Below, piece by piece: positions 44,737 to 47,516 of a stretch of 58,244 nt of DNA (position 1 is the first letter of the stretch; the number at the start of each line of letters is the position of its first letter). The stretch is from Bdellovibrionales bacterium. GTDB lineage: Bacteria; Bdellovibrionota; Bdellovibrionia; Bdellovibrionales; UBA1609. Made by a program: the position numbers and the translations under genes. Below the pieces are notes generated by a model, which was given only the letters and a program-made list of their open reading frames with translations, was not told where the DNA came from and searched no databases. The stretch covers positions 1-58,244 of the forward strand of contig JAHBUX010000019.1 of NCBI GenBank assembly GCA_019637855.1. Reading direction: 5' to 3'.

Positions 44737-46176
44737 ATGAAAAATAGCGTTCATTATTTTCCGACCCGGCTGTTCCGCTGGTTTTTGTCGCAGCAGATTT
44801 TAGCTTCTGCACTTTTCTTTGTCGTGCTGTGTGGAGGGCTTCTATTGTGGCTGGAAGCCACCACTTTGGAGCCCGAGGTGCGGCGTATGATTCGTCACGC
44901 GGTCTTGGTCACCCTCGCCATCTCATTCGGTGGCATGATTGTGATTTCGCTGGCGATGGCCCGTCGGCTGGTGGTGCCCCTCGGCCGCTTGATCGAAAAA
45001 ACGCGGCGTTTGCGTGAGTTTCAAAAACTCGAGGAGCATGAGCCTGAGGCATTGACCTTTGATGAACCGGGCGAATGGTATGAGCTGGAGCGGGCCCTTA
45101 ATCGCTTGGGGCGCGATTTGCGACAGAAGACCATCCGGCTATCGCGTGAGAAGACTGAACTGCGCGCCATTATGTCTGCGGTCAATGAAGCGGTCTTGGC
45201 TGTCAACAGCGAAAAGCGGGTGATGTTCTACAATCCGCAGTTTGCTTACCTGTTCAACCAACAGAGTGCTCCTAAGGGAGAAATTCATATTACGGAACTT
45301 CTACGCTCACCGGAAGTTTTGCAAATCTATGAAACCGCGCTGCAGGGCGGGGATCCGGTCCGACGCGAGGTGCAGATCACTGTGTCTGACGAGCGTCAGG
45401 CGCGGCACTTTCAACTCTCGGTGGCGCCTTTGCGCAAGAAGCACAATCAAGAGATCTACGGTGCGGCCGGTATTTTCTATGACATTACCGAGCTAAAAAA
45501 GGCCGAGCGCATTCGCATCGAATTTGTTGCCAATGTTTCACACGAGCTGCGTACGCCTTTGACGGCTATCAATGGCTATTTGCAGACAGTGATGAGTGAT
45601 TTTGAAAAGGGGCATACTGAACAGGCAGGTGAATTTCTTAAGATTGTCGCGGGCAACGCGACTCGTTTGAAGCATCTGGTTGAAGATTTGCTCGATATTT
45701 CGGCTCTGGAATCGGGTAAAGAGCTTTCCATGGAGCGGGTGAATGTGCAGGACCTCACGGAGGCAGTGATTCGACAGGTGCGCGCCAACTCGCACAAGGT
45801 TCATATCTTTTACGACTTCCAAGAAATGTGGGGCGACCCCAAGCGCCTAGAGCAGGTGCTACGCAACCTCATGGAGAATGCGGTTCGCTATGTTCCTGAG
45901 GGGCGCAATATCGAAATCCGCTGGGCTCGTAAGGGTGATGAGGGCTTTGAGCTGCACGTGAAAGATGACGGGCCGGGCATTGCACCTGAGCATCAGGCGC
46001 GTTTGTTTGAGCGTTTCTATCGGGTCGACGAGGCCCGATCACGCGCCACGGGTGGCACCGGTATAGGTTTGTCCTTGGTGAAGCATATCGTGCAAAGGCA
46101 CGGCGGCCAGGTGCATCTGCACAGCGAAATCGGCCGCGGTTCAGAATTTATCTGCGAGTTTCCGGGTCAATCTTAA
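44737..46176 (+). CDS. phoR: Phosphate-regulon sensor kinase PhoR
   Basis: A 479-residue membrane histidine kinase. TM1 about 18-40, TM2 about 53-76, a HAMP-like linker, a PAS domain (about 140-255), then HisKA with His269 in VSHELRTP and a HATPase domain (NLMENAVRYV, DDGPGIAP, GGTGIGLSL). It phosphorylates PhoB when phosphate is low. There are no pst transporter genes in the window. The end overlaps the convergent porin gene by 4 bases. Confidence 0.94.
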   Translation: MKNSVHYFPTRLFRWFLSQQILASALFFVVLCGGLLLWLEATTLEPEVRRMIRHAVLVTLAISFGGMIVISLAMARRLVVPLGRLIEKTRRLREFQKLEEHEPEALTFDEPGEWYELERALNRLGRDLRQKTIRLSREKTELRAIMSAVNEAVLAVNSEKRVMFYNPQFAYLFNQQSAPKGEIHITELLRSPEVLQIYETALQGGDPVRREVQITVSDERQARHFQLSVAPLRKKHNQEIYGAAGIFYDITELKKAERIRIEFVANVSHELRTPLTAINGYLQTVMSDFEKGHTEQAGEFLKIVAGNATRLKHLVEDLLDISALESGKELSMERVNVQDLTEAVIRQVRANSHKVHIFYDFQEMWGDPKRLEQVLRNLMENAVRYVPEGRNIEIRWARKGDEGFELHVKDDGPGIAPEHQARLFERFYRVDEARSRATGGTGIGLSLVKHIVQRHGGQVHLHSEIGRGSEFICEFPGQS

Positions 46177-47516
46177 AAGATAAAGCCGGCGCCCATATTC
46201 ACTTCGTCGGGTTCGTTGCCGGCGCCACTGCGCTTGTTGGCGTAGTCTACTTTCAGTACAAAGTTGGGTTGCGGAAAATAACTCACGCCGAAAGTGGTGA
46301 TATTTTTATCGAGTGCGGGGTCGCGCGCTAGACCGTCGGTGACTTTGTCATGCAGATTGTAGTGGCTATGACGAACAAAAAACCACAGCTTCTGCTTTTG
46401 TCCCAGCAGCTCAGTGGCGGCTTGTAGGCTGTAACCTTTGGCTTGCTCAGCCACCGTGCTTGAAGTGACTACCGAAATCGAATCCGCGTCCTGCAGGTCA
46501 CCTTGCGCATACATAGCCAGCAGTTGAAGCCGCGAGCGATTTACCTGCATGTGCACTTCAGAAACTTGAAAGGCGCCAGCGCGGATCGAGTCGTTACCTT
46601 GAGCACTATTGCCGAATAGGCTAGAGACGCCGAGGGTGACATTGTTACGACGGGCATTGATACGAAACACGGCCATCAGATCATCTGACGGCGAGCTCTG
46701 TCCTTGGCTGCGCCCGCCCGCTAAAAACGTGTCTTTGTGAAAACCCGTAGCATTCAGTGAACTAAAAACGCCGGCTTGGATTTCGGCCCGGTCGCGATCC
46801 ACCCAAGCGGTGACGCCGTTCTCATGCCAGAAGGAGGGAATGAGTTCACGTTCGAGCTCCGGACGTTGCACGCCGAAGAATGTGGTGGGATCGGCCGAAG
46901 TATTGACCACTCCGATCGGCACTAGCTGGTGACCCAAACGCAGTCCGGCGCGACCGTCCTCGGCACCCAGCCAATCGATGAAGGCCGTTCGCACGATAAC
47001 TTGGCCTTTTTGCTGCGTGACCGTGCCGCTGCTTTCAGCGCCACCATTTTCGAGCAGGAGCTGAGTGTTGAATACCAGGCGTTTGTTCAGATGTAGGCCG
47101 AGTGAGGGGGCGAGACTAAGAACGTTGGAGGTATTTAGGTTTTTCACACCGGCGCTGTTTGTGCCGTTCTGTTGTTTGAAGGCGAAAAACTCGGCGCTAA
47201 GGCCGAACACATAGTCTTCTTTGCTGAAGTAGATTTTGGAGGCGGAGGGACCAAGGCCGGTGAGGGTTTCGCTTGCGAGCGGAACATGCCAGGGTGGGGC
47301 TGTGGTGGCGGACACTTCTGGTGGTGGGGCCTGGGCAGATGATGATGGCGCGGCTGGCGTTGCAGCATCAGTTACGGGAGCTGCAGGCTTTGTCTGCAGC
47401 TCCCGTAACTGATGCTCCAGAACGTTCAAACGTTCGTGAATCGAATTCTCGCTGTCTTGCGCGAATGCATTTGGGGTAAATATCAAAGCTAGGATGGAGA
47501 AAACAAAACGACGCAA
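46173..47516 (-). CDS. Porin-like outer-membrane protein (phosphate-porin type)
   Basis: A 447-residue exported protein: signal peptide to about Ala19, a short coiled coil (ERLNVLEHQLREL), a Pro/Ala/Ser-rich linker, then a beta barrel ending in MGAGFIF. The coiled coil plus barrel layout resembles OprP/OprO-type trimeric porins, and it faces phoBR, so phosphate uptake is a good guess. The start is TTG 47516 after GAGGTCG. The linker region holds a perfect 23-bp inverted repeat. Confidence 0.8.
   Translation of the reverse strand: MRRFVFSILALIFTPNAFAQDSENSIHERLNVLEHQLRELQTKPAAPVTDAATPAAPSSSAQAPPPEVSATTAPPWHVPLASETLTGLGPSASKIYFSKEDYVFGLSAEFFAFKQQNGTNSAGVKNLNTSNVLSLAPSLGLHLNKRLVFNTQLLLENGGAESSGTVTQQKGQVIVRTAFIDWLGAEDGRAGLRLGHQLVPIGVVNTSADPTTFFGVQRPELERELIPSFWHENGVTAWVDRDRAEIQAGVFSSLNATGFHKDTFLAGGRSQGQSSPSDDLMAVFRINARRNNVTLGVSSLFGNSAQGNDSIRAGAFQVSEVHMQVNRSRLQLLAMYAQGDLQDADSISVVTSSTVAEQAKGYSLQAATELLGQKQKLWFFVRHSHYNLHDKVTDGLARDPALDKNITTFGVSYFPQPNFVLKVDYANKRSGAGNEPDEVNMGAGFIF
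47364..47416. repeat. Perfect 23-bp inverted repeat inside the porin gene
   Basis: Left arm 47364-47386 and right arm 47394-47416 are exact reverse complements over 23 bases, with a 7-base loop (GCTTTGT). The arms contain PstI-type CTGCAG cores. In the protein the first arm encodes HQLRELQ and the second encodes AAPVTDA. Confidence 0.97.

Follow-up and report, generated by a model that had tools for sequence, protein, structure and literature searches.

Probable template-switch origin of a perfect 23-bp inverted repeat within a Bdellovibrionales porin gene

A gene for an outer-membrane porin in the window, which is the whole 58,244-nt stretch of Bdellovibrionales DNA that was analysed (GCA_019637855.1, contig JAHBUX010000019.1), contains a perfect 23-bp inverted repeat within its coding sequence. 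This repeat was very likely left by a single template-switch mutation of the quasipalindrome type, in frame and within one strand, although intrastrand and interstrand switches would be indistinguishable from sequence alone. The two arms, at positions 47364-47386 and 47394-47416, match each other exactly as reverse complements on either side of a 7-nt loop, and on the forward strand they read AGCATCAGTTACGGGAGCTGCAG and CTGCAGCTCCCGTAACTGATGCT, respectively, with GCTTTGT between them. When one mismatch was allowed, the repeat grew to 26 bp (47361-47419). The gene lies on the reverse strand, so that in coding sense the 5' arm (47394-47416, the putative template) reads AGCATCAGTTACGGGAGCTGCAG, the loop (47387-47393) reads ACAAAGC, and the 3' arm (47364-47386, the putative copy) reads CTGCAGCTCCCGTAACTGATGCT. 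A self-complementary CTGCAG is present in the sequence at both borders of the loop, with its upstream copy at 47394-47399 and its downstream copy at 47381-47386. The preliminary description had placed the two 23-base arms and the 7-base loop between a coiled coil and a linker, which is exact in the sequence, and had assigned the residues AAPVTDA of the linker to the second arm; the translation agrees, and HQLRELQ, a part of the conserved N-terminal coil, comes from the 5' arm. The hairpin as a whole spans porin codons 34-51, just after the signal peptide.

The porin gene itself (46173-47516, reverse strand) was identified by a profile match together with its translation. It starts with TTG and encodes 447 amino acids of the Porin_O_P type, arranged as a signal peptide, a short coiled coil (RLNVLEHQLRELQ), a linker rich in Pro, Ala and Ser, and a beta-barrel. 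Its score against the Porin_O_P profile PF07396 was 22.8 bits, just above the curated cut-off of 20.9. The host genome comprises 3.37 Mb in 26 contigs and is 99.98% complete. A gene for a PhoR-like sensor histidine kinase (44737-46176 of the window) lies tail to tail with the porin gene with an overlap of 4 bases, and a similar kinase gene was found beside the porin gene in several relatives. The pairing of such a kinase with a porin of the phosphate-selective type suggests a phosphate-response neighbourhood.

The repeat is more than chance would produce. Perfect repeats of at least 23 bp with loops of 3-40 nt were expected approximately 3.3e-8 times in the window and 2e-6 times in 3.37 Mb. 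A 22-mer of the arm, searched across the window with as many as 3 mismatches allowed, occurred in these two places only, against 0.00 expected from shuffles. Synonymous-codon shuffles of 1.08 Mb of coding DNA from the same genome, the coding part of sampled stretches totalling about 1.2 Mb, yielded a mean of 0.0 repeats with arms of at least 14 bp. Within these 1.08 Mb the porin repeat was the longest that is truly intragenic, and the runner-up had arms of 15 bp. Two matches of equal or greater length that fell in called coding sequences (L128 and L032) were set aside, since the surrounding sequence suggested palindromic elements lying between genes in over-extended frames. For comparison, the longest intragenic arms measured 13 bp in 0.37 Mb of coding DNA from a genus relative, and 18 bp was the maximum within an open frame across 0.4 Mb of long-ORF DNA surrounding 80 homologues.

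Comparison with relatives indicated which of the two arms came first. The two genus relatives, the closest compared, whose porins share 46-51% identity, have no inverted repeat at this site, their best perfect arms being 7 bp, and arms longer than 12 bp occurred nowhere in any of 79 homologous porin genes. An alignment-based search of genome contigs returned distant homologues only, and an earlier search with a single protein gave no match. Relatives retain a coil where the 5' arm lies, immediately behind the signal peptide: LEhqLreLq of the present porin aligned with LEaqLeeLr, LEqeIetLk and LEseInaLk, and the relatives' coils included LEAQLEELR (P0002), LEQEIETLK (P0003), LESEINALK, LEKKVQTLT and many more. 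The linker, by contrast with the coil, is hypervariable among relatives in both length and sequence and could not be aligned. Since the coil arm is conserved and the linker arm is not, the coil was taken as the template and the linker arm as its copy. As both arms are poor in codon usage, this measure does not tell the source from the copy. Because the repeat is missing from the relatives, it arose in the present lineage; the hairpin is thus lineage-specific and postdates the split from species whose porin proteins are about 50% identical. The event had also been called recent, a term that holds in so far as the arms are undiverged and the event followed that split, and in no further sense. 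Instead of the same linker with ordinary divergence between the arms, which the preliminary description had named as the observation that would speak against a copying event, the relatives were found to be without any repeat.

We infer the order of events, the size of the insertion and the pre-event sequence as follows. During synthesis of the coding-sense strand, the 3' end ...CCTGCAG (the downstream CTGCAG, acting as the primer end of the nascent strand) would leave its template, fold back and pair with the upstream CTGCAG located 13 nt earlier, an annealing made possible by the self-complementary 6-mer and leaving a loop of 7 nt. The polymerase would then reverse-copy approximately 17 nt of the coiled-coil codons that it had just made (CTCCCGTAACTGATGCT), giving the putative newly templated DNA at 47364-47380 (17 nt, reverse strand), after which 2-3 nt of shared sequence (CT or GCT) would bring the strand back to its true template. 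In sum, a linker that tolerates change would have gained approximately 15 nt, or five codons (PVTDA); a 21-nt insertion would fit nearly as well, and so would a replacement. The strong hairpin would be a by-product whose lack of function is part of the same inference, and it would have been kept because the linker accepts the added residues and the phase in use contains no stop.

Several features of the sequence are consistent with these steps. Two of the three phases of the copied arm contain stops, and the phase in use is the sole open one, in keeping with the survival of tolerated outcomes only. Once 15 nt (or 21 nt) are removed, the Pro/Ala linker again runs in frame without a break (KPAAATPAAP or KPATPAAP), and in the implied empty site, shorter by 15 nt, a stem of 8 bp would remain as the seed of a quasipalindrome. 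All five-residue deletions across residues 36-85 were also scored against two relatives, with gains of 3-9 score units. Against the first relative, the implied deletion was the best of 45 positions, with PVTDA and APVTD tied; against the second it ranked third to fourth of 45, and neighbouring deletions scored slightly better. The comparison leans towards the model, but it is a weak test in a linker of such low complexity. The proposal that coil DNA had been copied in reverse into the linker by a template switch, made in the preliminary description, fits the lack of a repeat in relatives together with a conserved coil arm and a non-conserved linker arm. It also fits the 6-nt self-complementary seed at the turn, the single-copy nature of the sequence and the in-frame outcome.

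A hairpin selected at the level of the mRNA, which would slow ribosomes or protect or regulate the porin message, for example by allowing time for secretion targeting, would account for a predicted folding energy of -51.5 kcal/mol (z -10.3), by far the most stable of any 71-nt stretch of the porin gene (gene mean -17, sd 7), and for a position shortly 3' of the signal-peptide codons. This explanation is nevertheless unlikely, as the genus relatives have no comparable hairpin at this position and the 79 homologues have none in any part of the gene, and one template switch leaves a 23-bp perfect stem without selection. A selected RNA hairpin, offered earlier as the second alternative, is neither needed nor backed by conservation; a regulatory role of the predicted mRNA stem is possible but unsupported. 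An intrinsic terminator was rejected, given that 47364-47416 on the coding strand contains no U-tract or terminator-like site. A known RNA family was rejected as well: Rfam returned no family at the gathering score, only weak matches to miRNA precursors of a kind generic to any perfect hairpin. We regard as improbable a joint reading in which the hairpin was recruited, one template switch having given the porin a longer linker together with a very stable mRNA stem, just after the signal peptide, by which translation or secretion is tuned, and in which the fold-back rate of this genome is unusually high. Two single-copy perfect repeats, one intragenic (15 bp) and one intergenic (32 bp), can be cited for a high rate; older, decayed repeats of a similar kind were absent from the 1.08 Mb of coding sequence, which therefore gave no sign of a general excess.

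Fold-back chimeras formed in a library or amplification step can produce inverted-repeat structures such as this one, so that an artefact of sequencing or assembly has to be weighed too. It is very improbable here, in view of a contig that carries on correctly beyond the repeat in both directions without a change of gene or frame, a copied segment that lies in the only stop-free phase (a 1 in 3 chance) and an assembly that is 99.98% complete in 26 contigs. Least probable of all is the in-frame insertion of a mobile palindrome resembling Rickettsia palindromic elements or REP/MITE sequences. Such in-frame elements are known from Rickettsia genes, as cited in PMC6649704, and the present genome holds two multi-copy palindromic families of 36 and 14 half-sites. 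Neither arm of the porin repeat, however, has another copy in the genome, and the repeat is unlike both families; a mobile or repeated element was thus largely refuted. Moreover, one of the arms is itself coil sequence that relatives conserve at the corresponding sites, and the whole repeat therefore cannot have been inserted. A viral origin was rejected, the 22-mer having no exact match in IMG/VR.

Mutations that arise by template switching at quasipalindromes were reportedly described by Ripley in 1982. The process is established in E. coli, where the thyA hotspot and the lacZ QP reporters represent quasipalindrome-associated template-switch mutations (PMC7202029). The mutations studied there either remove a small number of mismatches from a quasipalindrome that already exists or cause loss of function or reversion, whereas the porin event would have copied approximately 17 nt, starting from a seed of 6-8 bp, in frame and in an apparently natural, lineage-fixed gene. 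Monttinen and Loytynoja argued that one template switch yields the hairpin of an RNA gene without selection (PMC8794818). Their RNA-gene hairpins resemble the porin repeat in that one event creates a long perfect stem de novo and places a reverse-complement copy beside its source; their products are RNA genes such as microRNAs and rRNA, while that of the porin is a surviving peptide encoded by a protein-coding gene, with no demonstrated RNA. Template-switch changes have also been documented in protein-coding genes of yeast (PMC8604942). There, as in the porin, amino-acid changes result from copying one arm of an inverted repeat into the other within a gene, but the yeast changes are replacements of at most 5 neighbouring amino acids between existing short repeats, and the porin change appears to be an addition of about five codons that builds the repeat. 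Inverted repeats within coding sequence have been described as rare, the principal cases being Rickettsia elements and the mitochondria of nematomorphs (PMC6649704). According to that paper and the references in it, these cases share with the porin the presence of inverted repeats in translated sequence; as described there, the Rickettsia elements are multi-copy and mobile, and the nematomorph palindromes are numerous, at least 15 bp long and with arms of up to 142 bp, whereas the porin repeat is isolated, measures 23 bp and has a single ancestral arm.

The porin repeat adds a clean new example to a known type of mutation, and it is set apart from the classical cases by the length copied and by an addition that is in frame and apparently fixed. 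It offers a natural case in which one bacterial replication error appears to have written several in-frame codons by reverse-copying adjacent coding DNA, and it implies that disordered linkers can gain sequence in a single step. Furthermore, that a very stable intragenic hairpin can arise without selection for RNA structure calls for caution against regulatory readings of such hairpins.

Other palindromic sequences were observed in this genome (G000). The first of the two multi-copy families, with the core GGTACCAGCTTCC...GGAAGCTGGTACC, has 36 exact half-sites, mostly in close inverted pairs, and its arms reach 44 bp. The examples that were read (L022:18049-18132, L032:11635-11683, L128:8150-8242 and L106:6226-6278) are intergenic and near stop codons. 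Half-sites of this family were absent from three genus relatives, and two were found in genome G041 and one in genome G042. The second family, TAGGGCCTAACATTTCCGGAAATATACGCG, has 14 exact half-sites, with examples at L105:3392-3497 and L103:6914-7015. The 15-bp runner-up among intragenic repeats (L028:246-279, perfect, with a 4-nt loop) lies in a membrane sensor-like coding sequence (LEMKWSGPFHLN); it was compared with relatives at 28-33% identity, which are too distant to show its origin. A perfect inverted repeat of 32 bp with a 3-nt loop (L124:14967-15033), called intergenic and present in a single copy in the sampled 1.2 Mb, is possibly the product of another fold-back event.
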